Below are positions 1 through 10,348 of a stretch of DNA of 10,348 nucleotides, piece after piece. The first letter of the stretch is position 1. Each line of letters begins with the position of its first letter. Source of the stretch: Actinomycetes bacterium (lineage in GTDB: Bacteria > Actinomycetota > Actinomycetes > Actinomycetales > Beutenbergiaceae). The stretch spans positions 1 to 10,348 of the forward strand of contig JAJYRV010000044.1 in assembly GCA_021793935.1 (NCBI GenBank), in the 5' to 3' direction. Both the position numbers and the translations under genes were made by a program. The notes beneath the pieces were generated by a model, which saw nothing but the letters and a program-made list of their open reading frames with translations, had not been told where the DNA came from and made no database searches.

Positions 1-136
1 GGTTGCCGCTCGTGGGCACCTCGCGTTGCTGGCGGTTGGCGAGTGCTTCAGCGATCTTCTGCGGCGCCGAGGCGCGTACTTCGCGTATACGGGTGAAGTC
101 TTCTGCCTGAAGAGCCGGGACGTTGGCGCCGATCAT
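1..136 (-). CDS. Cgl0159-like (beta/alpha)8 aldolase-family protein, 5' end only
   Basis: Reading leftward from an ATG at 136-134, an open frame of 45 codons runs off the window edge. It starts MIGANVPALQAEDF and continues with a helix-like stretch, IREVRASAPQKIAEALANR. The start codon overlaps the stop of the upstream iolC in an ATGA arrangement (133-136), and an AGGA lies about ten bases before it, so translation is probably coupled. The 'IRE-R---P--IAEA---R' pattern resembles my recollection of the N-terminus of the Cgl0159 family, (beta/alpha)8 proteins found beside iolC in actinobacterial inositol clusters. Only the N-terminus is visible, so no catalytic residue can be checked. The reading frame is secure; the family name is a recollection supported mainly by context. 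It would act in the cytoplasm in inositol catabolism. Confidence 0.6.
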   Translation of the reverse strand, partial: MIGANVPALQAEDFTRIREVRASAPQKIAEALANRQQREVPTSGN

Positions 137-1086
137 GCGGAGGGTTTCCTTAGGATCGAATGGATTTCGTCGGTGGTGGGCATCGCTGTGGAGCACTCGT
201 GCCGCGAGGCGACGATCGCGCCGGCAACGTTCGCGAAGCGCAGCGTCTCCTCCAGGCCCCACCCGCGCAACAGTCCCAGGGTCAACGCCCCACCGAAGCC
301 GTCTCCGGCGCCCAGGCCGTTGACCACCTCGACGACGTGGGGCGGGACGACGACGGTCTCATCCGCCGTCTTGGCGAGCACCCCGTCCGGGCCCTGCTTG
401 ACGATCGCGATCTGTACCCCGCGCTCGAGGAGGGCATCGGCGGCGCGAACCGGATCGGTCTCGCCCACCGCGACCTCGCACTCCTCCTGATTCCCGACCG
501 CGACCGTGACGTATTCGAGCGCGGCTTGGATCTGCTCGCGGGCGTGTTGGGTGGAGTCCCAGAACACGGGCCGGTAATCGAGATCGAGGATCGTGTGGGT
601 CTTGCCCTCACGTGCCTTCAAGGCGGTGAAGTGCGACCCGCGGGACGGTTCTTCCGACAGCCCCGTGACCGTCAACCAGAACACTCGGCTCGACCTCACC
701 GCATCGAGGTCGAGGTGTCTTTCTTCGATGTTCAGATCGGGTGCTTTGGGGAAGCGGTAGAAGTAGATGGGAAAGTGGTCCGGTGGGTGGATCTCACAGA
801 AGGTCACCGGCGTGGGGTTGGTGTCATCGATGAAGATGTGGGAGGTGTCCACACCCAGGCGGGCGGCCTCGGCCGTGCAGAATTTGCCGAAGGGGTCGGC
901 GCCGACGCCGGTGATGACGCTAGCGTTCAGCCCGTGCCGTGAGGCGGCGACAGCGACGTTGGTCGCACTTCCGCCTAGGTAGCGCTTGAACGTCTCGACT
1001 TCATCCAGCCCCACTCCCCCTTGCAACGGGTAGAGGTCAATCCCAATCCGGCCCATCGTGAGCACGTCGTAGGGTGAAGACATCAT
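133..1086 (-). CDS. iolC: 5-dehydro-2-deoxygluconokinase (PfkB family)
   Basis: A 317-residue PfkB/ribokinase-family sugar kinase, a normal length for IolC. It phosphorylates 5-dehydro-2-deoxy-D-gluconate with ATP in the cytoplasmic myo-inositol degradation pathway. The N-terminus carries MGRIGIDLYPLQGGVGL, with Asp17 in the substrate-binding position. The first PfkB signature, GGSATN, is at residues 38-43. The second is NGLGAGDGF, with the GAGD anion hole and catalytic base Asp262 at 259-262. The 'GRIGIDLYPLQ' opening is typical of IolC rather than of ribokinase or fructokinase. Two adjacent ATGs (1086-1084 and 1083-1081) could start it and neither has a strong Shine-Dalgarno sequence; I kept the longer form. 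It is transcribed away from the GntR/ABC genes and overlaps the next gene by four bases. A ketodeoxygluconate kinase of the same fold is the main alternative. Confidence 0.88.
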   Translation of the reverse strand: MMSSPYDVLTMGRIGIDLYPLQGGVGLDEVETFKRYLGGSATNVAVAASRHGLNASVITGVGADPFGKFCTAEAARLGVDTSHIFIDDTNPTPVTFCEIHPPDHFPIYFYRFPKAPDLNIEERHLDLDAVRSSRVFWLTVTGLSEEPSRGSHFTALKAREGKTHTILDLDYRPVFWDSTQHAREQIQAALEYVTVAVGNQEECEVAVGETDPVRAADALLERGVQIAIVKQGPDGVLAKTADETVVVPPHVVEVVNGLGAGDGFGGALTLGLLRGWGLEETLRFANVAGAIVASRHECSTAMPTTDEIHSILRKPSA

Positions 1087-1121
1087 TGTTGCACCGCGTT
1101 TCTACTCGTAAACTTGATGAC

Positions 1122-1150
1122 ATCCTAATGTTAGGACAAAAGTCCGTCAA
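1122..1150 (-). promoter_or_regulatory. sigma70-type promoter of iolC
   Basis: On the minus strand a TTGACG hexamer (1150-1145) is followed after exactly 17 bases by TAGGAT (1127-1122). This is close to the TTGACA-N17-TATAAT vegetative consensus. Transcription would begin near 1115, leaving a leader of about 30 bases before the iolC ATG. Hexamers and spacing are seen directly; activity is inferred. Confidence 0.65.
1123..1145. promoter_or_regulatory. palindromic operator candidate in iolC promoter
   Basis: Two overlapping inverted repeats sit inside the iolC promoter. TCCTAA-TG-TTAGGA (1123-1136) is a perfect palindrome covering the -10 hexamer, and GGAC-AAAA-GTCC (1134-1145) fills the spacer up to the -35. 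A protein bound here would block RNA polymerase, so this is a good candidate repressor site. The binder could be the neighbouring GntR protein or an inositol regulator encoded elsewhere; the sequence does not decide. Confidence 0.5.
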
Positions 1151-1438
1151 GGTGAAGCGGGCGGAAATTACTAGGCGCGCCGCCACGCGCACGGCGTGCG
1201 GCCGGGCGCCTCGCCGCGCCGTGAGTTTTCGCCGAGTTGTGCGCGTTCCCGATCCGCCGACCGCGGGATCCTCGACGATGCTACCAGCCGGAACTCCGCC
1301 GGCCCGTGCCTCGCAGCGCGTCGCGGTGCCCCTCACGTTACGCGCCGACCTGCCTCGAGGGGAAGCGGTGTGAGGTTCTGGGCTTTGCTGCGGCGGTTCT
1401 GGTAATTCGCCGCGGCGTTTACCCGGCGCGGATCCCGT

Positions 1439-1454
1439 GAGATGTTAATATCTC
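1439..1454. promoter_or_regulatory. Palindrome GAGATGTTAATATCTC, operator candidate
   Basis: A 16-base near-perfect palindrome with a single mismatched pair (G1444 against T1449), about 105 bases upstream of the GntR start. It is AT-centred in GC-rich surroundings and has the size of a dimeric repressor site. Function is inferred from symmetry and position only. Confidence 0.35.
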
Positions 1455-1496
1455 GTGACAAAGGGTCCGAGAAATAACAAGGCCGTGCTCAGGGTC

Positions 1497-1513
1497 GATC
1501 AAAGGCCTTGATC
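1497..1513. promoter_or_regulatory. Inverted repeat GATCAA-N5-TTGATC before the GntR gene
   Basis: Perfect six-base arms separated by five bases, ending 44 bases before the GntR start codon. This is a position where GntR-family proteins commonly repress their own gene. It may be an autoregulatory operator or a small hairpin in the leader. Confidence 0.35.
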
Positions 1514-1557
1514 AGCGACGGCTGGTAGTACGTAGCGATTGTGAAGAGAGGCTGTTA

Positions 1558-2322
1558 ATGGCGCAGCTCGAGGAGACGGTGCTCCCACTGACCGTTTTTA
1601 TGGATCTCGACCGAAACGGTCCGATTCCCCTGTATTTCCAGATCTCCCAACGACTCGAGCAAGCGATCCACGATGAACTGCTCGTTCCCGGTGCCCGCCT
1701 GGAGAACGAGATCGCGCTCGCGGCGCGCCTGGGCCTGTCCCGCCCAACGATTCGGCGAGCGATCCAGGAGCTCGTCGACAAGGGGATGCTCGTGCGCCGC
1801 CGCGGTGTGGGAACCCAAGTCGTTCAAGGCCGGGTGAACCGCGATGTTGCCCTCACGAGTCTGCATGATGACCTGAAGCGGTCGGGCAAAGAGCCATCCA
1901 CGGTGCTGCTGTCCCACGAGGTGCGCGAGTGCACCGAGGAGGAGGCCGACCGCTTCGCCGTGCCCGCCGGGAGCGAGTGTTTGCAGATCCGGCGGCTCCG
2001 GATGGGCGACGGCGTGCCGTTGGCCATCCTCGAGAACGTGCTCACCCAGGAGCTCCTCGACATCTCGCGGCAGGACCTGGAGAAGTACGGCCTGTATCAG
2101 ATCCTTCGTTCCAAAGGGGTTTCCCTCCGCGTCGCGAAGCAGACGATCGGCGCCCGAGCCGCAACGCAGGAGGAGGCAACGGCCCTCGAGATCGACGAGG
2201 GGGCGCCGGTCCTCACGGTCACCCGAGTCGCCTTCGACAACACCGGTCGGACGATAGAAATGGGGCGGCACTGCTATCGCCCGGACCTGTACTCGTTCGA
2301 GGTCACGCTGGTCGATCGGTAG
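1558..2322 (+). CDS. GntR family (HutC-type) transcriptional regulator with UTRA domain
   Basis: A 254-residue protein of typical HutC-subfamily length. An N-terminal winged helix-turn-helix covers about residues 15-85: PIPLYFQISQRLEQAI, then a helix-turn-helix around ARLGLSRPTIRRAIQELV, then the wing VRRRGVGTQVV. The C-terminal part (about 100-245) is a UTRA ligand-binding domain, recognisable from segments such as ECLQIRRLRM and the ending EMGRHCYRPDLYSFEV. UTRA domains bind small effectors; characterised relatives respond to sugar phosphates, histidine-pathway intermediates or phosphonate-related signals. The start is the ATG at 1558, six bases after GAGAGG; a second in-frame ATG at 1600 would still give an intact DNA-binding domain. 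Its position between iolC and an ABC importer makes both likely targets. The ligand cannot be read from the sequence. Confidence 0.9.
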   Translation: MAQLEETVLPLTVFMDLDRNGPIPLYFQISQRLEQAIHDELLVPGARLENEIALAARLGLSRPTIRRAIQELVDKGMLVRRRGVGTQVVQGRVNRDVALTSLHDDLKRSGKEPSTVLLSHEVRECTEEEADRFAVPAGSECLQIRRLRMGDGVPLAILENVLTQELLDISRQDLEKYGLYQILRSKGVSLRVAKQTIGARAATQEEATALEIDEGAPVLTVTRVAFDNTGRTIEMGRHCYRPDLYSFEVTLVDR

Positions 2323-2506
2323 GGGCGGGGTGCCGGTGGAATCGGCCTCCTGCGCGGGGCGGTCCTCGCGGTAGGGGGTGGTGAGCGCGCGCCGGCGGGC
2401 CGCTCGGGTGCGCGCTGCCAACCCGGTCATGTGCTGCGAGATGGCGCCGTTTAGTAGCGGTCTGGTGGGCATCGTAGGGGTGCGATAAAAGCTTTCGCCG
2501 AGGGGT

Positions 2507-2535
2507 TTGAAACCCACGTCCATATGGTCTAACAT
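2507..2535 (+). promoter_or_regulatory. Promoter candidate for the ABC transporter operon
   Basis: TTGAAA (2507-2512), a 17-base spacer, then TAACAT (2530-2535) fits a vegetative promoter, with four of six -10 positions matching TATAAT. Transcription would start near 2542 and give an untranslated leader of roughly 260 bases, unusually long for this kind of operon. The hexamers are visible; promoter activity is inferred. Confidence 0.45.
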
Positions 2536-2543
2536 ATGTACAT
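2521..2543. promoter_or_regulatory. CATATG repeats and ATGTACAT palindrome, operator candidate
   Basis: CATATG occurs at 2521-2526 and again at 2533-2538, flanking GTCTAA. It is followed by the palindrome ATGTACAT at 2536-2543. The cluster covers the -10 hexamer and presumed start site of the ABC operon promoter. The core TGGTCTAACA resembles the TGGT...AC style of half-sites used by many GntR-family proteins, so the adjacent regulator is the natural candidate binder. This is an inference from symmetry and position. Confidence 0.4.
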
Positions 2544-2717
2544 GCATTCATTGGCGAATCATCGCACGCCCGGTCGGATCCCTGAGGAAGGGGATCGGCG
2601 CCGAGGCGTCGATTTGGTGGCCGCCCTGTTGATAGGTGCCGTTACGGAGGCAACGTGACTAGAACGAATCTCCCTGTGAGGAGCGATCGGCGTTAGGGTC
2701 AACCCCGCCGACGACGC

Positions 2718-2745
2718 AGCGGCTCTGTTCTCCCGTTGAGCCGCT
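2718..2745 (+). other. Leader hairpin upstream of permease gene
   Basis: AGCGGCTC (2718-2725) pairs perfectly with GAGCCGCT (2738-2745) across a 12-base loop, 59 bases before the permease start codon. No T-run follows, so it is not a standard intrinsic terminator. It may be an RNA structure affecting translation or stability of the ABC operon message. Confidence 0.4.
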
Positions 2746-2804
2746 CAAGGGTCGTGAATATCCGCGAAGAGAAGACAGCAACGGTCAAATAAAATTGGAA
2801 AACT

Positions 2805-4640
2805 ATGACGAAAGTCGACAATGACGTGAATCGGAGCGAATCCGCCCCCGCCTTGAAGGGGCGAATAAAATATAAATTGCTTCGCATTGCTAAGGAGCCT
2901 ACGACTGCGGTAGGAATCCTCACGGCTCTGCTGTTCACTTACCTTATTGTCCTGCCGATCATCAGCCTGCTCAGCGACGCGTTTCGGGTGCAGTACGGCG
3001 ACGAGCACCGAGCCGGCCAACCCGTCGGCTCCTTCACTCCGTATTACATACTGCGGATCTTCACCTCTGATGCCGCTTCGAAAACGCTGTGGAAGCCGCT
3101 GCTGAACACCCTGACGATCTCCTTCGGCGCGATCATCATCGCGCTCATCGTCGGTGGGTCGATGGCATGGTTCCTGAGCCGGACGAACATCTGGGGCCGT
3201 AAATGGCTCGCTACGGCACTGATCGTGCCCTACATGCTCCCGGCGTGGACGTTCGCCCTCGCCTGGACCACGGTGTTCAAGAACCGGAAGATGGGGGGAA
3301 CCTACGGCTGGCTCGAATCGATCGGGATCAATCCTCCGGACTGGCTCTCCTACGGCGCGGTCCCGATCATCGTCACGTTGGCGTTGCACTATTCCCCGTT
3401 CGTCATCCTTCTTTTCGGTAACGCTCTGAAGCGGTTCGACTCACAGCTCGAGGACTCCGCCCGAATCCTGGGGGCGGACCGCAAGACGGTCAACCGCAAA
3501 ATCATCCTGCCGCTCATGAAGCCCTCGCTGGTGTCGGCGAGTATCTTGATCTTCGCCAAGGGGCTCGGAGAGTTCGGTGTCGCCTACGTCCTGGGCGTCC
3601 CGGGGAACTACCACGTGCTCGCCACCTCGTTGTACGCGAACATCCAGTCCCGCAACACCGGGGCGGGCGCCGTGCTTGCCGGCGTGATCGTCATCATCGG
3701 TGCGCTTGCGCTGCTCGTCGACGCACGGATGCTGCGCGAAGGCAAACGCTTCGTCACAGTCGGATCGAAGGGAAGCATGAGCCGACTGCGCGACCTGGGA
3801 AGGATGCGCATCCCCGCCTTCGGCGCCGCCCTGACCGTATTCGCCGTGGGTGCTGTGCTGCCGATGTCGGTGCTCTTCCTTTCGACCGTGATGCGCAAGC
3901 CCGCAGACTTCTCGCTCTCGAACTTCACCTCCGAGTTCTGGATCGGCACGAACCTCGATACGATCGCCCTGGAAACCGGGGTACTGGTCACTCCGGCGTT
4001 CTGGGAGGCCGCCTGGAACACGTTGTGGATCGTGGGTCTCGCCGCGATCGTCGCGGGGATCCTCGGGCTGCTCGTCGGCTACGTCGTCGTGAGAACGCCC
4101 GTGAAATTCCTCTCCCAATATGTGCGACAAGTCGCGTTCTTCCCCTACCTGGTACCCGGGATCGCGTTCGCCGCGGCGATGCTTTCGTTGTTCGCCGTCC
4201 AACGCGGACCGATACCTGCCCTGTACGGCACCGGTCTGCTCTTGCTGCTCGCCTACATCGCCGACCAGATGCCCTACGCCTCCCGCGCCGGTATCTCGGC
4301 GATGATGCAACTGGGCAACGACCCGGAGGAAGCCGCGAAGGTGCTCGGAGCGGGATGGTGGCGCCGGATGGCAAGCATCGTCGTCCCGATCCAAAAGAGT
4401 GCGCTGAGCACGGGGGTCCTGCTGCCGTTCATCTCGGGGATCAAAGGCCTGAGCCTCGTGGTCTTGCTGGCGACCCCGGGCACCGACGTGTTAGCAACCT
4501 ATTCCCTGAACCTCGTTGATTACGGATACGACCAGGCCGCCAACGCCGTCGTATTGATGATCGCCATCCTCGCCCTTACCGGCACGCTACTCGGACAAAA
4601 ACTAACAAAGAGCAACCTCGCAGAAGGGTTAGGTGGTTAA
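2805..4640 (+). CDS. ABC transporter permease, fused double domain (Fe3+/sugar-phosphate/phosphonate type)
   Basis: A 611-residue integral membrane protein made of two fused binding-protein-dependent permease domains, as in FbpB/AfuB-type importers. Each half has several membrane helices (first at about residues 35-56) and one cytoplasmic EAA loop that docks the ATPase: EDSARILGADRKTVN at about 216-230 and EEAAKVLGAGWWRRM at about 508-522. A basic linker at about 320-335 joins the halves. Because both halves are in one chain, it should work with a homodimeric ATPase and needs no second permease gene. The ATG at 2805 is fixed by an in-frame TAA just upstream (2790-2792); its ribosome-binding site is weak (GGA at 2797-2799), and the first 30 codons are AT-rich compared with the rest. 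The ATPase gene begins one base after its stop. The family includes importers of ferric iron, hexose phosphates and 2-aminoethylphosphonate, so the substrate is not defined by this subunit. Confidence 0.9.
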   Translation: MTKVDNDVNRSESAPALKGRIKYKLLRIAKEPTTAVGILTALLFTYLIVLPIISLLSDAFRVQYGDEHRAGQPVGSFTPYYILRIFTSDAASKTLWKPLLNTLTISFGAIIIALIVGGSMAWFLSRTNIWGRKWLATALIVPYMLPAWTFALAWTTVFKNRKMGGTYGWLESIGINPPDWLSYGAVPIIVTLALHYSPFVILLFGNALKRFDSQLEDSARILGADRKTVNRKIILPLMKPSLVSASILIFAKGLGEFGVAYVLGVPGNYHVLATSLYANIQSRNTGAGAVLAGVIVIIGALALLVDARMLREGKRFVTVGSKGSMSRLRDLGRMRIPAFGAALTVFAVGAVLPMSVLFLSTVMRKPADFSLSNFTSEFWIGTNLDTIALETGVLVTPAFWEAAWNTLWIVGLAAIVAGILGLLVGYVVVRTPVKFLSQYVRQVAFFPYLVPGIAFAAAMLSLFAVQRGPIPALYGTGLLLLLAYIADQMPYASRAGISAMMQLGNDPEEAAKVLGAGWWRRMASIVVPIQKSALSTGVLLPFISGIKGLSLVVLLATPGTDVLATYSLNLVDYGYDQAANAVVLMIAILALTGTLLGQKLTKSNLAEGLGG

Positions 4641-4641
4641 C

Positions 4642-5751
4642 ATGCCTTCGATCGAACTTCAGAACATCACAAAAAACTATGGTGGCGGCACTCCCAACGC
4701 CGTCGAGGACCTCAATCTGACCATTGAGGACGGCGATTTCATGTGCCTCCTCGGACCCTCGGGTTGTGGGAAGACCACGACGCTGCGGATGATCTGCGGA
4801 CTCGAGAACCCCACCCGGGGAACGATCCGGATCGGCGACCGGGTCGTGGACTCGGTCGAGGACGGGATCTTCGTCCCGCCGGAGCACCGCAGGCTCGGGC
4901 TCGTGTTCCAAAGCTACGCACTGTGGCCCCACCTCAGCGTCTACGACAACGTCGACTTCGGGCTGAAGCTCAAGAAGATCCCGCAGCAGGAACGGAGCCA
5001 GCGCGTCGGGGAGACGATGGAGAAGCTCGGAATCTCGGCGTACGCGAAACGGTACCCCTCGGAGCTCTCCGGCGGTCAGCAACAACGCGTCGCCCTCGCC
5101 CGGATGCTCGCGATCAACCCGGAGATCCTTCTCCTCGATGAGCCCTTGTCCAACCTCGACGCCCGGCTGCGCCTGGAGATGCGCACGGAACTCAAACGCA
5201 TTCACGAGGAGTTCAATACCACCGTGGTGTTCGTTACCCACGACCAATGGGAGGCGATGACCCTGGCCACGCGTATCGCCGTCCTCAATGAAGGGGAGCT
5301 CCAACAGGTCGACACTCCGGTGAACATCTACGAGAACCCGAGCAACCAGTACATCGCCGAGTTCGTCGGGAACCCGCCGATCAACCTGCTGGAGGCCCCG
5401 GCGCTCACGAGTGCCGAGATCGATAGTCAGATCACGCAGCGGTTAAGCGGTCTCGGCGGGGATCAGGCCGCGGCGACGGTGGGGATCCGGCCCGAAGACA
5501 TCACCGTCTCCTACTCTCCGAACGAGGGGAGGAGCGATGCCTTAACAGTCAACTGCCGGATCGATGCGGTTCTTCCTACGGGAGGGAACTGGATCATCGA
5601 ATTGAGCACCAAGTACGGGAAGCTTTTCGCGGTAGCCCAGAATATCAACGGCTTGAAACCCGACACCGACGCGTATGCGAGCGTTCGGCTAGACAACCTG
5701 AAAATGTTTGATTCCAGCGGCGTTAATCTGAGCGCACTCGCCGCCGTTTAA
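4642..5751 (+). CDS. ABC transporter ATP-binding protein
   Basis: A 369-residue ATPase that powers the importer from the cytoplasmic face. All nucleotide-binding motifs are intact: Walker A GPSGCGKT (38-45), a Q-loop in LVFQSYALWPHLS, the signature LSGGQ (142-146), Walker B ILLLDE (162-167), a D-loop SNLDA and switch His200 in VTHD. The C-terminal third, including TVGIRPEDITVS, is a TOBE domain typical of the polyamine/iron/sugar importer group. I chose the ATG at 4642, preceded by AGGTGG (4631-4636), over an in-frame GTG at 4633 that would overlap the permease gene. The permease stop ends at 4640, so the two are almost certainly cotranscribed and translationally coupled. Automatic tools may call it FbpC or spermidine/putrescine PotA; substrate cannot be inferred from the ATPase. 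Confidence 0.92.
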   Translation: MPSIELQNITKNYGGGTPNAVEDLNLTIEDGDFMCLLGPSGCGKTTTLRMICGLENPTRGTIRIGDRVVDSVEDGIFVPPEHRRLGLVFQSYALWPHLSVYDNVDFGLKLKKIPQQERSQRVGETMEKLGISAYAKRYPSELSGGQQQRVALARMLAINPEILLLDEPLSNLDARLRLEMRTELKRIHEEFNTTVVFVTHDQWEAMTLATRIAVLNEGELQQVDTPVNIYENPSNQYIAEFVGNPPINLLEAPALTSAEIDSQITQRLSGLGGDQAAATVGIRPEDITVSYSPNEGRSDALTVNCRIDAVLPTGGNWIIELSTKYGKLFAVAQNINGLKPDTDAYASVRLDNLKMFDSSGVNLSALAAV

Positions 5752-5797
5752 ATCTGACCTTGAGCTAGTGCTCAATCTGAAAAAGGAGAAGACAGCG

Positions 5798-6985
5798 ATG
5801 TCACATTCGAAAAAGAGAAGGAACCCTGCCCTACCGCTGGTGGGGATACTAGGCAGTGCAGCGTTACTCCTGGGGTGCTCCCCATCCTCAGCTCCCGACT
5901 CGGGGGGCGGCGGGGAAGCCGCTGCCGGCGAGGACGTCTTGGGATCTGATGAGGACTACTCCCTCGAGGAACTGATCGAGGCTGCGCAGGAAGAAGGGCC
6001 GATCGTCGTCGCCGACTCGACGGGCCGGATCAAAGATGCAGCCGAGGCCTTCACCGAGAAGTACGGCATCGAAGCCGTGGGGGAGAAGATGAAGGCCTAT
6101 GAGCAGATCGAGGTGCTCATCCGCGAGTCGCAGGCGGGGAACGTGAAGACGGATGTCTCGTTCGTCGCCGACGTGCCGACGGTTGTCGCCGAACTCTTGC
6201 CCACGGGGGTTGCGACAACCTGGTTCCCGCCCGACATGGCCGAGGACGTGGACGAGGGCTATCAGGATCCGGCCGTCAATGCGCTCGACCCGAACGTGTG
6301 GACATACAATGGGGATGTCTACGACTCGTGCCCGATCTCGAACCTCTGGGAGGTCACCGAGGAGGAATGGCACGGTAAGGTCAGCCTCCAGGACCCCGAG
6401 CTCAAGACCGCCGTCACCTACATGTTCAACGAGATGGCGGCAAACGATGAGCTCATGCACGAGGCATACGAGGACCTCTACGGCGAAGAGTTGGTGACCG
6501 AGGAGGAGACGGCCACGGCGGAATGGGTGAAGCGGCTGGCGGAGAACGATCCGCTGGTGACGAAGTCCAGTTCTGATGCGACCGCCCCGATCGGTGCCCC
6601 GGGCTTGGATGACCCGTTCGTCGGGCTGATCGCAAGCGCGAAGTACCGTCAGAACGAATCCGAGGGCTACCACCTGACGGTGTGCGAAGGACTCGAACCC
6701 TGGGTGGGCCACGTGTACGGTAAGGCACCGGTGATCGCCACCGGTACGAGCAACCCGAATGCGGCGAAACTGTTCGTCCACTTCCTGTACACCGAGGAAG
6801 GAATGGCCTCCCAGACCGCCGACGGTAAGGTCTCCACCAACAATACGGTCCCGATCGACCCCACCGACCCGAGTGACGTCGAGAGCGTGTGGGACGACCT
6901 TCTGTTCGAAGATTCCAACCACTCCGACTCTGACTACGAGATGACTCAGGATTGGCAGGACTTCTGGGTGGGCTACGCCCGATAG
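5798..6985 (+). CDS. ABC transporter substrate-binding lipoprotein (iron/organophosphate-type fold)
   Basis: A 395-residue extracellular solute-binding lipoprotein. The start at ATG 5798 follows AAAAGGAGAA; a GTG at 5768 is in frame but would precede this ribosome-binding site. The basic MSHSKKRR start, hydrophobic stretch and lipobox LLLGC (Cys27) indicate a lipid-anchored protein, followed by a flexible Gly/Ala/Glu linker. The mature part begins near LIEAAQEEGPIVVADSTGRI and includes SNLWEVTEEEWHGKVSLQDP, a pattern common in the SBP_bac_6/8-like clusters that bind ferric iron, sugar phosphates or phosphonates. There is no adjacent Tyr-Tyr pair, which classical ferric-binding proteins use to hold iron. 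Two further cysteines, Cys178 and Cys296, could form a disulfide. The protein is acidic. It is the last gene of the three-gene ABC operon, 46 bases after the ATPase gene, and is followed at once by a large hairpin. Confidence 0.87.
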   Translation: MSHSKKRRNPALPLVGILGSAALLLGCSPSSAPDSGGGGEAAAGEDVLGSDEDYSLEELIEAAQEEGPIVVADSTGRIKDAAEAFTEKYGIEAVGEKMKAYEQIEVLIRESQAGNVKTDVSFVADVPTVVAELLPTGVATTWFPPDMAEDVDEGYQDPAVNALDPNVWTYNGDVYDSCPISNLWEVTEEEWHGKVSLQDPELKTAVTYMFNEMAANDELMHEAYEDLYGEELVTEEETATAEWVKRLAENDPLVTKSSSDATAPIGAPGLDDPFVGLIASAKYRQNESEGYHLTVCEGLEPWVGHVYGKAPVIATGTSNPNAAKLFVHFLYTEEGMASQTADGKVSTNNTVPIDPTDPSDVESVWDDLLFEDSNHSDSDYEMTQDWQDFWVGYAR

Positions 6986-6991
6986 GAATGC

Positions 6992-7076
6992 GCACGGACA
7001 CCTACGGCAACGACCGGGAGAACTCGCGCGGCCTGAGGGGCACGCTGGTGCCGACCGGGTTGCCGTAGGTGCGTGC
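6992..7076 (+). terminator. Large hairpin after the ABC operon
   Basis: CACCTACGGCAAC (6999-7011) pairs perfectly with GTTGCCGTAGGTG (7059-7071). It is extended by GCACG/CGTGC (6992-6996, 7072-7076) across a two-base bulge, giving 18 base pairs around a 47-base loop with its own small GGCAC/GTGCC stem. It begins seven bases after the binding-protein stop codon. No T-run follows. It may be a factor-independent terminator of the GC-rich actinobacterial type, or a stem protecting the message of the highly needed binding protein. Confidence 0.5.
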
Positions 7077-7221
7077 CGCCGCCAACAGGGTCGTCGTGCG
7101 ATTCACCGAGATCGGCGCGTTGTGGCTCTCAGACAGATCGCACTTGCCTCGGTCACTGGAAAAATACCTCGATCGTCAAATGAAAAACACAACACTGATG
7201 AGAAATCTGTGAAAGGGAGTT

Positions 7222-8040
7222 ATGAGTAACTCGACAAGTTATCGATTGACAGCGATTCGCGCTGCAATCGCCGCCCGCGCCGTGGTGATGAAGGGGTTTC
7301 GCCGGGCAATAGACAAAGAGTTCAAGCGCGACGCGCACGATATCGTCACGTTCTACGATCGGGCGGCGGAAGAACTCATCATCGAGGAGATCAAGAAGGA
7401 CTTCCCCGACTCCAGGATCGTCGGCGAAGAGGGCGGTGAGCGCGGGGGTGAGGACCCGACCTGGGTGATCGACCCGATCGACGGCACATCCAATTTCGCT
7501 GCCGGGATCCCCTTCTGGTGCATCTCGATCGGCGTGAGCGTCGAGGGCAAACTCGTCGCCGGCGTGATCTACAACCCCGTGGAGAACCTGCTGTTCAGCG
7601 CTGACGAACACGGGGCGCTCCTCAACGACCAACCGCTCAAGGTCGATTCGCCCGATGACCCGCTCGAGGCGACCCTGATCTCCAGCTTCCCCAACGTTAA
7701 GGATCTCGATCTGTTGGGAGACAAGGTCTTCGAAACGAGCAAGAAGCTCACGACGAGCTTCCAAGCGTCGAGGAACCTGGGGAGCGGCGCGCTGAACCTC
7801 GCCTACGTCGCCACGGGTTGGGCCGATGCCACGTTCGGGTTCTCCACCAGCCCGTGGGACGTGGCCGCGGGCGCGTTCATCCTGGAGAAGGCCGGCGGCA
7901 CCTTCCGCAGCTTTGACGGCGGCGTGGAAGTGGACAGCCCGCTGGAGGCCGTCGATTACTACGCGTTCGGCAGCAAGAACCCCTACGAGCCGCTGGGCGG
8001 TGAGGTGCAACGTCTGTCCACGCTGGCAGGCAAAGCATAG
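7222..8040 (+). CDS. Inositol monophosphatase family protein
   Basis: A 272-residue cytoplasmic, metal-dependent phosphatase of the IMPase/FBPase-like superfamily, normal in length. All metal-site residues are present: Glu69-Glu70 in VGEEGG, the signature WVIDPIDGTSNF with Asp84 and Asp87, and the second signature SPWDVAAGAFILEKAGG with Asp213. Members hydrolyse inositol 1-phosphate, but others prefer histidinol phosphate, fructose-1,6-bisphosphate, 3'-phosphoadenosine phosphate or other sugar phosphates, so the exact substrate is open. The ATG at 7222 follows AAAGGGAG with unusually short spacing (two bases after the GGAG). An AT-rich stretch lies upstream, and no strong promoter is visible. 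Its place between an importer and a second phosphatase-fold enzyme, near iolC, suggests that it dephosphorylates an imported inositol phosphate or sugar phosphate; this is inference. Confidence 0.9.
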   Translation: MSNSTSYRLTAIRAAIAARAVVMKGFRRAIDKEFKRDAHDIVTFYDRAAEELIIEEIKKDFPDSRIVGEEGGERGGEDPTWVIDPIDGTSNFAAGIPFWCISIGVSVEGKLVAGVIYNPVENLLFSADEHGALLNDQPLKVDSPDDPLEATLISSFPNVKDLDLLGDKVFETSKKLTTSFQASRNLGSGALNLAYVATGWADATFGFSTSPWDVAAGAFILEKAGGTFRSFDGGVEVDSPLEAVDYYAFGSKNPYEPLGGEVQRLSTLAGKA

Positions 8041-8138
8041 AGAGGTGAAGGTTGACGTGACGAAATTTGGGGTCGAGGTTCACACCGCTCCCCGGGTGAA
8101 TGTTGGAAATAGTGTGCGAGGAACAAGCAGGTGCGAAA

Positions 8139-8939
8139 ATGTTGAATAAGCCTAAGGCGCTTCTACTGGACTTCGGCGGCGTCGTCGCCGAGACGATCCC
8201 ACGGGAGGGGTGGCTCGAGGAGCTCTCCGCCCAGCTGCAGGAGGAGTTCCGGGCGGCCGGCGTGACCGCGTTGCCGTTGGAGCGCATCCAAGAAGGCATC
8301 GTCGGCGGCAGAAAGACGGCCTCCCGGTGGAAGAACGTGCAATCGCGGGTGTATAGCCCGCCGGAATTGCAGTACGAGACGTTCTGGGTGGACTTCGTGG
8401 CCGCGGACTGGCCACAGGATGTCCGCGACTACCTGTACGACAACGCCAAGCGACTGTGCCTGGACCTGGGAGAATACGTCTCCGAGCGAGTGCTGCGCAA
8501 CGGCATGCACGAACTGCTCGTGACCGCTCGGGAGGACGAGGTGCCCGTCATCATCGTCAGCAACGCCCTGATGGGGGACGTGCACCGCCGCTGGCTCGTG
8601 CGCAACGACCTCATCGATTACTTCCAGCACGAGGTGTACAGCGACGAGGTCGGGATTCGCAAGCCGAATCCGGGCATCATCGAACTCGGGGCGGCGCTCG
8701 CCGGAGTATCGGTCAGTGAATGCTGGTACGTCGGCGACACCTATGACCGCGATGTTGCGTGCGGCGGACGGGCGGGCGTCGGCGGGAACATCTTGATGCA
8801 CGCCCGCAGCACCAAGAACCCTCCCTTCAGCGTGCCCTACGAGCCGGACGCGGAGGTTGAGGATGGAGTCGGGCTCCTGGAACTGTACCGGGAAGCCGCA
8901 AACGTTGCGGAAGGTGCCGTGCCCGTCGCAACCAGCTAG
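8139..8939 (+). CDS. HAD-superfamily hydrolase, class IA-like
   Basis: A 266-residue haloacid-dehalogenase-fold enzyme. Motif I is LLLDFGGVV, with nucleophile Asp11. Motif II is VSN, with Ser141. Motif III is RKPNP, with Lys175. Motif IV is GDTYDRD, with Asp200 and Asp205. The residue two after the nucleophile is Gly13 instead of the acid/base Asp of typical HAD phosphatases. The same DxG pattern occurs in YihX-like sugar-phosphate phosphatases, so phosphatase activity remains possible, but a dehalogenase- or phosphonatase-like reaction cannot be excluded. An ATG at 8100 is in frame, but the ATG at 8139 has AGGTG five bases upstream and starts right before the fold, so I prefer it. It lies 98 bases after the phosphatase gene and probably shares its transcript. 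A strong hairpin follows its stop codon. Confidence 0.85.
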   Translation: MLNKPKALLLDFGGVVAETIPREGWLEELSAQLQEEFRAAGVTALPLERIQEGIVGGRKTASRWKNVQSRVYSPPELQYETFWVDFVAADWPQDVRDYLYDNAKRLCLDLGEYVSERVLRNGMHELLVTAREDEVPVIIVSNALMGDVHRRWLVRNDLIDYFQHEVYSDEVGIRKPNPGIIELGAALAGVSVSECWYVGDTYDRDVACGGRAGVGGNILMHARSTKNPPFSVPYEPDAEVEDGVGLLELYREAANVAEGAVPVATS

Positions 8940-8952
8940 CGCGAGGTGAGTA

Positions 8953-8993
8953 GCGACGGGCGGTTCTTGCTAAGAAGGAGAACTGCCCGTCGC
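8953..8993 (+). terminator. Strong hairpin terminator after the HAD gene
   Basis: Fifteen-base arms (8953-8967 and 8979-8993) pair with only one G-U wobble around an 11-base loop, starting 13 bases after the HAD stop codon. The stem is GC-rich at its base. There is no long T-run, as is common for terminators in high-GC Gram-positives. It most likely ends the IMPase-HAD transcript. Confidence 0.6.
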
Positions 8994-9011
8994 CTCCCAT
9001 TCACTGATGCA

Positions 9012-9038
9012 TCGGAACGGTTCCGCTAACCGTTCCGG
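9012..9038. other. Second hairpin/inverted repeat upstream of the phosphate transporter
   Basis: CGGAACGGTT (9013-9022) and AACCGTTCCG (9028-9037) are perfect complements around the five-base loop CCGCT, 19 bases after the previous stem. It may be a second tandem terminator or a palindromic regulatory site for the PiT gene 180 bases downstream. The pairing is certain; the role is not. Confidence 0.45.
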
Positions 9039-9216
9039 CAGGTCCCTATTCCCACGTTCGCTTTGCCGAGCGAATTCGCGCATCATCGTGGTCGACGGGG
9101 CCTGCGTCGATATTCCAGCTCAAAGCGCGGGTAGCCATCGCCCGCTGACCTGGTTGCCGGTTGCATGGATGAACGAGCTGAAAAGAGTTACCTAGAAGGC
9201 AGACAGGAATATCGCT

Positions 9217-10203
9217 TTGATTGACAGTATTGTACCCGTCATTCTCATTCTCCTCGCCATTTTCATGGCATATGTGAGTGGGGCGAACGACGGCGGGGCG
9301 ATCCTAGCCGTGCCGGCGAGAGTCGCGGATAACGGAGTAGGCAAGCACGTCGTCGTGCTCACGCTCGCCGTCCTCATCGGACCGTTATTGACCACGGACG
9401 TGGCGGCGACGCTGGTGAGCGGACTGTTCGACTTCAGTAGCGATAACTCTGCTGCGATATTCATGCTCGGTACGGGCGTGGGGCTTGCGCTGGTCACCCT
9501 GCTGACCCGGGTGGGGCTGCCGACCAGCCTGACGCTCGCGCTCGTGGGGGGACTGACCGGGGCGGGCCTCGGCGGAGGGGCGAGCGTCGATGGCCGCATG
9601 GTGCTTCGGGTACTGCTCATCGGGCTCCTCGCTCCACTCTTGGGATTCGGGTTGGCTGCGCTCGGGTTCGTTCTGCTCAGGCGGTTCGGTGGGATAGCGA
9701 GCAGCAGCCGGACGATGAAGCCGATGCAGGGCATCGCGTTTTTCTTGCTCGCGCTCGCGTACGCGATCAACGACGGCCAAAAAATGATTGCGATCGGCGC
9801 GGTGGCCGTGTTGAGCCTCGCTCCGTCCGTAGATATCCTCAGCGGCGGCGAGGTTCTGCCGCGGCTCGCAACGAGCCTCGTCCTCGTAGTGCTCTTCGTG
9901 CTCGGACTGTTCTCCCGGATCAGGAAGGTCGGCTACCGGCTCGGATTGGGACTGGCGCGGGTCGGGGCGATCGACGCGCTCGTTTCACAAGCGGCGGCCT
10001 CCAGTGCTGTGCTCGCCAGCGCCGCCTTGGGCGCGCCGGTGAGCATGACGCAGTCGATCTCCGGGGCAATCGTCGGTTCCACGATGTCTCAGGGCGCTCA
10101 CCGCGTCCGCTGGACCGCCGTTTCCAAGATGCTGGGAGCCTGGCTGATTACGTTACCGGCTACGTTCTTAGCCGGCTATGGATTGGGATTTTTGCTGACA
10201 TGA
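9217..10203 (+). CDS. Inorganic phosphate transporter, PiT family
   Basis: A 328-residue polytopic membrane protein of the PHO4/PiT family (low-affinity, cation- or metal-phosphate-coupled phosphate carriers). It contains the repeated family signatures: YVSGANDGG at about residues 19-27 (Asn24, Asp25), the inverted-repeat copy YAINDGQKM with Asn185 and Asp186, and PVSMTQSISGAIVG at 274-287 in place of the usual P-V-S-T-T-H motif. The first motif is GANDGG rather than GANDxAN, which marks a divergent bacterial branch. About ten hydrophobic segments cover the protein. The start is TTG at 9217, seven bases after AGGAA (9205-9209); the next in-frame ATG (9265) would cut into the first membrane helix. 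The gene is preceded by terminator-like stems, so it probably has its own promoter. It overlaps the next gene by four bases. Confidence 0.88.
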   Translation: MIDSIVPVILILLAIFMAYVSGANDGGAILAVPARVADNGVGKHVVVLTLAVLIGPLLTTDVAATLVSGLFDFSSDNSAAIFMLGTGVGLALVTLLTRVGLPTSLTLALVGGLTGAGLGGGASVDGRMVLRVLLIGLLAPLLGFGLAALGFVLLRRFGGIASSSRTMKPMQGIAFFLLALAYAINDGQKMIAIGAVAVLSLAPSVDILSGGEVLPRLATSLVLVVLFVLGLFSRIRKVGYRLGLGLARVGAIDALVSQAAASSAVLASAALGAPVSMTQSISGAIVGSTMSQGAHRVRWTAVSKMLGAWLITLPATFLAGYGLGFLLT

Positions 10204-10348
10204 GAATTTTATCGAAACTGAGTTTTAAGGGAGTCCGCTCCGGGGTCGGGGAGGCCGTCGGAAAGCGGGGGCGCCGGGTCATCTCGCTGCTCGACGACCA
10301 GCTCGACGCGACCGCTCGGGGCACCCGCCTGGCCATCGCGATGTCGGA
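10200..10348 (+). CDS. Probable DUF47/PhoU-like PiT accessory protein, 5' end only
   Basis: An open frame from the ATG at 10200 overlaps the PiT stop codon (ATGA at 10200-10203) and runs for 49 codons off the window edge. The visible start is a basic MRILSKLSFKGVRSGVGE segment followed by a helix, ISLLDDQLDATARGTRLAIA. PiT genes are often paired with a DUF47 (PhoU-like, all-helical) protein that controls the transporter, and the visible helix, with its spaced leucines and acidic residues, fits that. Only a third or less of a typical DUF47 protein is present, so the assignment rests mostly on context and coupling. The reading frame itself is well supported. Confidence 0.55.
   Translation, partial: MRILSKLSFKGVRSGVGEAVGKRGRRVISLLDDQLDATARGTRLAIAMS

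Follow-up and report, generated by a model that had tools for sequence, protein, structure and literature searches.

Phytate, a major phosphorus store of plants, and the lower inositol phosphates account for large pools of organic phosphorus in soils and plant material. In Sinorhizobium meliloti, Smb20712 was predicted and tested as an ATP-binding cassette (ABC) protein for free myo-inositol, and the available part of the same source speculates that an HlyB-family transporter of Caulobacter may carry inositol phosphates (PMC2597717). As far as its available part goes, a second source mentions phytases of bacteria and iolT, a transporter of free inositol, and names no bacterial inositol-phosphate importer (PMC12482443); a third, likewise available in part, reports no evidence that sugar phosphates enter Streptomyces cells in phosphorylated form (PMC7866108). 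A literature search by title and abstract start found no bacterial inositol-phosphate importer, most subscription literature lying outside its coverage, and literature listings contained no linked importer for the products of MINPP-type phytases. Here, we describe a 10,348-nucleotide stretch of actinobacterial DNA (the window; contig JAJYRV010000044.1, positions 1–10,348), in which the genes of an ABC importer with its solute-binding protein (SBP), an IMPase-family phosphatase, and a HAD hydrolase lie next to a gene of inositol catabolism. From sequence comparison, we regard it as likely that inositol phosphates are imported intact by this system, dephosphorylated inside the cell, and catabolised as inositol, and that the operon is controlled together with inositol catabolism.

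Gene organization of the window

The genes of the window were assigned by Pfam and NCBIfam matches to eight reading frames. Those of the importer and its regulatory and enzymatic neighbors are as follows:

133–1086, minus strand: IolC, 5-dehydro-2-deoxygluconokinase of inositol catabolism, divergent from the rest (TIGR04382, 371 bits; cut-off 300)
1558–2322, plus strand: GntR-UTRA regulator, likely an iol/inositol-phosphate regulator (PF00392 and PF07702)
2805–4640, plus strand: ABC permease of 611 residues with two fused transmembrane domains (PF00528, BPD_transp_1, in two stretches)
4633–5751, plus strand: ABC ATPase (PF00005 and TOBE_2; Walker A and signature motif present)
5798–6985, plus strand: lipoprotein SBP with a ferric-binding/AfuA-like fold (SBP_bac_8/11; lipobox LLGC)
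7222–8040, plus strand: IMPase-family phosphatase (PF00459, 202.8 bits; cut-off 27)
8100–8939, plus strand: HAD hydrolase with motif I DFGG (PF00702/PF13419)

Together with the match to a PiT carrier (described below), these assignments confirmed the gene set that had been named from the letters of the window without database searches (the sequence-only reading), that is to say, GntR-UTRA, the ABC importer, IMPase, HAD, PiT, and the divergent iolC. The permease was taken as one fused protein because its 611 residues contain two BPD_transp_1 stretches. The spacing from the permease gene to the HAD gene is operon-like: the permease and ATPase genes overlap by 8 bp, and gaps of 46, 236, and 59 bp separate ATPase and SBP, SBP and IMPase, and IMPase and HAD, respectively. 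The gap between gntR and the permease gene is 482 bp. Rfam and tRNA scans of the window gave no match.

Phosphatase genes recur beside the importer in relatives

The SBP search revealed 213 proteins at E ≤ 0.001, of which 120 were listed, and 19 of these were aligned with the window SBP. This 20-sequence alignment was scanned over one genome per species and matched at least 594 stretches and at least 369 relatives; the best 80 of the relatives, kept as 79 loci, are the closest loci referred to below and are not a random sample. Neighbors were counted up to 9 kb from the anchor SBP among six-frame open reading frames (ORFs), using hidden Markov models (HMMs) at E below 1e-8. Because these very loci supplied the neighbor HMMs, the counts depend on the sample; family calls were made on representatives.

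Importer genes were found near the anchor SBP in almost all closest loci (permease 77/79, ATPase 78/79). Conserved linkage was the check that the sequence-only reading had attached to its module, with non-conservation set beforehand as refuting it; that outcome did not occur, and an IMPase gene was found beside the SBP in 64 of the 79 loci. The other phosphatases counted were of the dual-specificity type (56 loci), the metallophosphoesterase family (42 loci), and the HAD family (17 loci), and a Na/Pi cotransporter gene was present in 32 loci. Usually, two or more phosphatase genes accompany the cassette, often together with the Na/Pi carrier, and 66 loci have a phosphatase gene, a Na/Pi gene, or both. 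The 13 loci without either comprise nine of a PhnD type, three from Alcaligenaceae, and L063, whose contig begins at the SBP. A LacI-type regulator was found in 61 loci, a PhnD-type binding protein in nine, and a GntR of the window type in none of the 79. PF00459 matches numbered 134 in 20 genomes (3–11 in each, mean genome size ~4.4 Mb, the cassettes' own included); by an arithmetic estimate, chance would place an IMPase gene within 9 kb in ~3% of loci, against the 64 of 79 observed.

Linked cassettes span Actinomycetota, Alphaproteobacteria, and Gammaproteobacteria. Sinorhizobium, Devosia, and Shinella plasmids have similar gene orders (that of S. meliloti was taken from strain RCAM1750), and the Ensifer plasmid locus, which was the first plasmid match, is of the PhnD type without an IMPase gene. 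Only 5 of 199 Microbacteriaceae genomes had the SBP at E ≤ 1e-50, two of these being already in the set; therefore, the cassette is sporadic in this family.

The PhnD-type loci (L008, L010, L015–L017, L020, and L022–L024) contain sister systems, in which a gene for a PhnD-type phosphate/phosphonate binding protein stands before the same permease–ATPase–SBP set and no IMPase gene is present. Their hosts are Brucella (Ochrobactrum-like), Paenochrobactrum, Ensifer, Aureimonas, Nitratireductor, and Roseinatronobacter. Judged by its genes, this sister system is a second phosphorus-linked importer. Two further genes were observed beside cassettes: an MgtC-family gene adjoins the cassette at L006:17073–17897 (by Pfam) and L009:4188–5048 (by similar sequence), and a gene of a calcineurin-like phosphoesterase (motif VVGDVHGRW) lies beside Microbacterium cassettes at L007:4934–5806 (by Pfam), L006:17979–18884, and L009:4991–5839.

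Link to inositol catabolism

The window GntR was ~60% identical over ~248 residues to the GntR encoded divergently from iolC in the Microbacterium loci L088, L089, and L090, and the window IolC was 61–73% identical to the IolC proteins of four Microbacterium iol operons (L087–L090). Therefore, an iol operon that runs off the left edge probably begins with the gntR–iolC pair of the window. The window permease was 69–71% identical to the permeases of the L006, L007, L009, and L011 cassettes, and iolD and/or iolG lie inside these four loci. In the genomes of L007, L009, and L011, the gene order is iolC–mmsA–iolB–iolD–iolG, and iolG ends ~2.4–5.6 kb before the permease gene. In L006, iolC, mmsA, iolB, and iolD are followed by a xylose-isomerase-like gene, a GFO/IDH/MocA oxidoreductase gene, a phytase gene, and the permease gene. 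In Marinomonas (L043, L057, and L061), iolG and iolB face the other end of the cassette, accompanied by additional iol genes in L043 and L057. Unlike in Microbacterium and Marinomonas, the window cassette is placed on the gntR side. A distant cassette (genome G164; SBP 40% identical) has iolG, iolD, and iolE homologues within ~15 kb. No iol genes were found near the Microbacteriaceae cassettes of G083 (54 kb read) and G256 (36 kb read).

Within 30 kb of the cassette, iolC was found in 8 of 69 genomes (G001–G004, G016, G018, G043, and G046), against ~0.8 expected by an arithmetic estimate; this count leaves out the nine PhnD-type genomes. In a quick SBP tree with long branches, which was used only for the spread of the iol link, iol adjacency occurs on both main sides.

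A candidate operator lies between the two divergent genes of the window:

1127–1140, no strand assigned: putative GntR operator AATGTTAGGACAAA between iolC and gntR (best site in the window, 19.1 bits; next 10.9 bits)

Positions 1128–1139 have one mismatch to TTGTYAGGACAA. Across 112 loci that overlap in part (1.93 Mb), this motif has seven perfect matches, every one of them located either between gntR and iolC (L088, L089, and L090) or in the cassette promoter (L007 and L009); it was chosen after the iolC and cassette promoters had been inspected, so the match counts are not an independent test. The chance expectation of TTGTYAGGACAA with one mismatch in L007 alone is 0.02. An operator matrix, trained only on six Microbacterium gntR–iolC sites, was compared with the maxima of 68 stretches of ~10 kb from proteobacterial loci of the same collection (median 7.0 bits, top 16.6 bits). 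The matrix scored 24.8 bits at the L007 and L009 cassette promoters, 19.1 bits at window 1127–1140 (higher than any comparison maximum), 17.0 bits before the L087 iolC, 16.1 bits before the L006 phytase gene, and 15.1 bits at the L011 cassette promoter; scores of 15–16 bits are borderline because the comparison maxima reach 16.6 bits. In Microbacterium, one predicted operator motif is common to iolC and the cassette. No matrix site above 9.5 bits was found in L012, L019, L045, L084, or L106, and the window cassette promoter contains no good operator, its best site (2523–2536) scoring 6.4 bits against the comparison median of 7.0.

Before the window permease gene, a promoter-like TTGAAA-17-TAACAT overlaps an inverted repeat (CACGTCCATATG/CATATGTACATG) at 2507–2544, such promoter-like matches being no commoner than chance. 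This repeat is possibly a diverged cassette operator. An operator-like ATTGTCTTGACATT (16.1 bits, borderline) is also located directly before the permease gene in G256 (L109:11721–11734), where the SBP is ~40% identical and no iol genes are nearby.

Beside the Microbacterium clusters, a phytase gene encodes a predicted secreted protein of ~480 residues that matches MINPP enzymes of solved structure; the best PDB match of the L006 copy is 7zgf (E 1.4e-84). MINPP homologues occur in four of nine actinobacterial loci: the gene adjoins the permease gene in L006, lies beyond the cassette in L084, and adjoins gntR–iolC in L088 and L090, which belong to the genomes of L007 and L011. PF00328 was present in all three phytase copies scanned. 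Operator-like ATGTCCTGACAAA and ATGTCCGGACAAA lie immediately upstream of the L088 and L090 phytase genes. Across 50 genomes, PF00328 was found in nine and was located at the cluster in four; the Marinomonas matches are on contigs other than that of the cassette. The sequence-only reading had suggested inositol as the carbon part of the ligand, and the iol-type GntR, the iol adjacency in two phyla, and the MINPP linkage in four clusters strengthen that suggestion.

Beta-propeller phytase matches were found in 5 of 50 genomes, near the cassette only in Wenxinia, where an ORF with partial matches to this family (PF02333; L050:16883–17644) directly follows the Na/Pi gene. This ORF had no tblastn match in the loci of other genomes.

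Solute-binding protein and importer

The predicted SBP model had a predicted local distance difference test score (pLDDT) of 87.3. Its structural neighbors were HitA (Z 27.5), MctA (27.0), FbpA (25.9), AfuA (24.8), and P5PA (23.8). Judged from this model, the fold alone does not name the ligand, and searching the PDB with the SBP sequence by itself revealed nothing useful. AfuA holds phosphate with Ser37, Thr60, and Ser148-Gly149-Thr150. In a weak alignment with AfuA, read by eye, the positions of Ser37 and Ser148-Gly149-Thr150 are occupied by other residues in the window SBP, and the sugar-holding stretch of AfuA (His205/Asp206/Glu229) remained unaligned. The analogy to AfuABC drawn by the sequence-only reading stands as to fold class only; the phosphate-holding residues of AfuA are not evidently kept, by eye, and HitA and MctA score higher.

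Ferric-binding proteins such as FbpA have an adjacent pair of iron-binding tyrosines in the C-lobe. No adjacent Tyr-Tyr was present among the invariant or nearly invariant columns of the 20-sequence SBP alignment. The PhnU2 model scored 150.6 bits on the permease (cut-off 593.25) and the PhnT2 model 324.3 bits on the ATPase (cut-off 457.7), and both are still among the best NCBIfam models for these proteins. A ferric-iron or phosphonate importer was rejected as the principal interpretation on the missing Tyr pair and these scores far below the cut-offs. No phosphonate catabolic gene was found by Pfam among the eight window genes.

In several relatives (L028, L029, L004, L006, and others), two to three, perhaps four, tandem diverged SBP genes accompany one permease–ATPase pair, which suggests several related ligands per transporter.

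Phosphatases of the window

The window IMPase contains the motifs GEEGG, DPIDGT (residue 84), and WDVAAG (residue 212), and its best PDB match is SuhB (E 4.4e-38). It scored below the cut-offs of the curated models for HisN (149.8 bits; cut-off 275) and inositol-1-monophosphatase (135.1 bits; cut-off 332); therefore, no curated substrate name applies. HAD phosphatases usually have the second Asp of the motif I DxD as general acid. The window HAD hydrolase has motifs II–IV (VIIVSNA, RKPNPG, and YVGDTYDRDV), and its motif I, LLDFGGVV, lacks the second Asp; DFGG is also in the consensus of six related HADs. Lacking this residue, the window HAD is regarded as a putative phosphatase. The description of the motifs as intact, which the sequence-only reading had given, therefore fits IMPase and HAD motifs II–IV and is too strong for HAD motif I.

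PiT carrier and downstream region

The region downstream of the HAD gene contains 3 further features:

8953–8993, plus strand: very stable hairpin, possible transcript end (minimum free energy −39.5 kcal/mol for 8936–9010)
9217–10203, plus strand: PiT-type phosphate carrier with a TTG start, operon membership uncertain (PF01384, 113.5 bits; cut-off 33.7)
10200–10348, plus strand: ORF whose start overlaps the PiT stop, cut at the window end, identity unproven (49 codons)

The hairpin lies in the 277-bp gap between the HAD and PiT genes. The stretch 8936–9010 had a z of −5.59, with none of 200 shuffles equally stable. The hairpin has no T-run and was not listed as a terminator; it is a possible terminator, attenuator, or processing site. 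PiT was found in none of 95 related loci by tblastn and in none of the 79 closest SBP loci, and was rejected as a conserved part of the system. The sequence-only reading had included it in the module; in its place, a Na/Pi cotransporter is found in many other clusters. PiT may be a separate unit; it is tied to the system by position alone and may serve phosphate disposal or uptake here. The last ORF had been called a probable PiT regulator; its 49 visible codons (10200–10346) gave no Pfam match at E 0.1, and that name was left unconfirmed.

Proposed mechanism and alternatives

In the proposed mechanism, a phytase outside the cell, either its own or that of neighbors, would release lower inositol phosphates; several relatives would obtain the ligand from phytate through a secreted MINPP-type phytase. 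The lipoprotein SBP would capture inositol phosphates outside the membrane, and the fused permease and the ATPase would import them with the phosphate kept. Inside, IMPase and HAD would strip the phosphate, joined in relatives by dual-specificity-type and metallophosphoesterase enzymes, and the freed inositol would enter the iol pathway. GntR may sense an inositol-derived signal and tie these steps together. In many relatives, the Na/Pi carrier would deal with surplus phosphate, a task that may fall to PiT in the window. We infer the ligand, the enzyme substrates, the binding and effector of GntR, the direction of phosphate transport, and the role of PiT in this scheme. Of the module put forward by the sequence-only reading, comparison supports the core (uptake of an unbroken phosphoester, removal of its phosphate in the cell, and inositol as the likely carbon part) and not the PiT part, the ligand and the enzyme activities being predictions. 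The Na/Pi carriers carry PhoU domains (in a representative), and because the regulators are of carbon type (GntR, and LacI-type in most closest loci) and the Na/Pi carriers have these domains, the system is suggested to serve carbon supply with phosphate disposal. More broadly, there is about an even chance that we are dealing with a dedicated ABC importer for approximately inositol mono- to tetrakisphosphates (InsP1–InsP4), which belongs to one inositol regulon together with phosphatases of the cytoplasm and, where a species has it, a secreted MINPP phytase. With such a system, bacteria from at least two phyla, living in soil, in association with plants, or as symbionts, would draw carbon from phytate and discard surplus phosphate.

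Several observations weigh against inositol phosphates as the cargo: (i) the window contains no phytase gene and no iol gene besides iolC; (ii) its SBP is at most 53–56% identical to those of iol-linked relatives and sits on a long tree branch; (iii) iolC was not seen within 30 kb in 61 of the 69 genomes searched; (iv) the L009 genome has no PF00328 match anywhere; (v) the iron-binding HitA and the metal-citrate-binding MctA outscore AfuA in the fold comparison; and (vi) the tandem SBPs hint that the ligands of many proteobacterial members could be other phosphorylated compounds. The strongest competitor, improbable in our estimate, is that a different phosphomonoester is transported (for example, hexose phosphate or glycerol phosphate), that IMPase is a general phosphatase, and that the iol link is incidental or confined to certain members. 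AfuA and P5PA, which have the same fold, carry glucose-6-phosphate/fructose-6-phosphate and pyridoxal-5-phosphate, respectively (PMC4546632 and PMC8427247, as far as the available parts of these sources go), most proteobacterial clusters have no iolC within 30 kb, and tandem SBP genes suggest several ligands. By contrast, the iol-related regulator with the shared operator motif, the four MINPP-linked clusters, and the occurrence of iol-adjacent cassettes in both main parts of the SBP tree argue for inositol phosphates.

An inositol phosphodiester (for example, glycerophosphoinositol), which a phosphodiesterase would cleave in the cell before IMPase acts, would agree with the frequent metallophosphoesterase genes (also present in L007), a fold that includes phosphodiesterases. 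However, the MINPP linkage points to inositol phosphate monoesters, and none of the eight window proteins was assigned to a phosphodiesterase family by Pfam, which makes such a cargo less probable still. Transport of free inositol or a different cyclitol, with the phosphatases serving other purposes, fits the position of the cassette beside inositol catabolism genes, but it seems very unlikely given that phosphatase genes, usually two or more and often with a Na/Pi carrier, travel with the cassette. In addition, the predicted inositol binder of S. meliloti is another ABC protein, Smb20712 (PMC2597717, available part), which we infer to differ from the cassette SBP. We give equally little credence to import of ferric iron, metal-citrate, or 2-aminoethylphosphonate: the best structural matches, the automatic name "iron ABC transporter permease", and the presence of PhnU2 and PhnT2 among the best models speak for it, whereas the low PhnU2 and PhnT2 scores and the absence of the ferric tyrosine motif from the conserved SBP columns speak against it, and phosphatase genes, rather than iron or C–P genes, recur beside the cassette. 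If import of phosphorylated inositol is true, it would close a gap in the cycling of phosphorus and carbon and would explain rhizobial clusters whose permease carries that automatic annotation.

Comparison with known systems

ABC importers of phosphometabolites are known, and no description was found of the present cargo, gene set, and regulon. The PhnSTUV and PhnU2–PhnT2 systems for 2-aminoethylphosphonate have related permease and ATPase families, and the window proteins score far below their curated cut-offs. MINPP-type phytases (7zgf and 6rxd; BtMINPP) have a secreted homologue linked to four related clusters, with none seen in the window. The iol operon supplies the catabolic genes linked to the cassette; the operator motif is common to both in Microbacterium, and the window GntR and IolC are related to their iol-operon counterparts. 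The transporters of iol operons (IolT, the IbpA system, and Smb20712) take free inositol, according to the available parts of the sources (PMC2597717 and PMC12482443), whereas the cassette is built around phosphatases. The AfuABC importer of hexose and heptose phosphates and P5PAB of Actinobacillus share their SBP fold class with the window SBP at 14–18% identity in structural alignments; unlike these two systems, the window operon has its own phosphatases and an inositol-type regulator.

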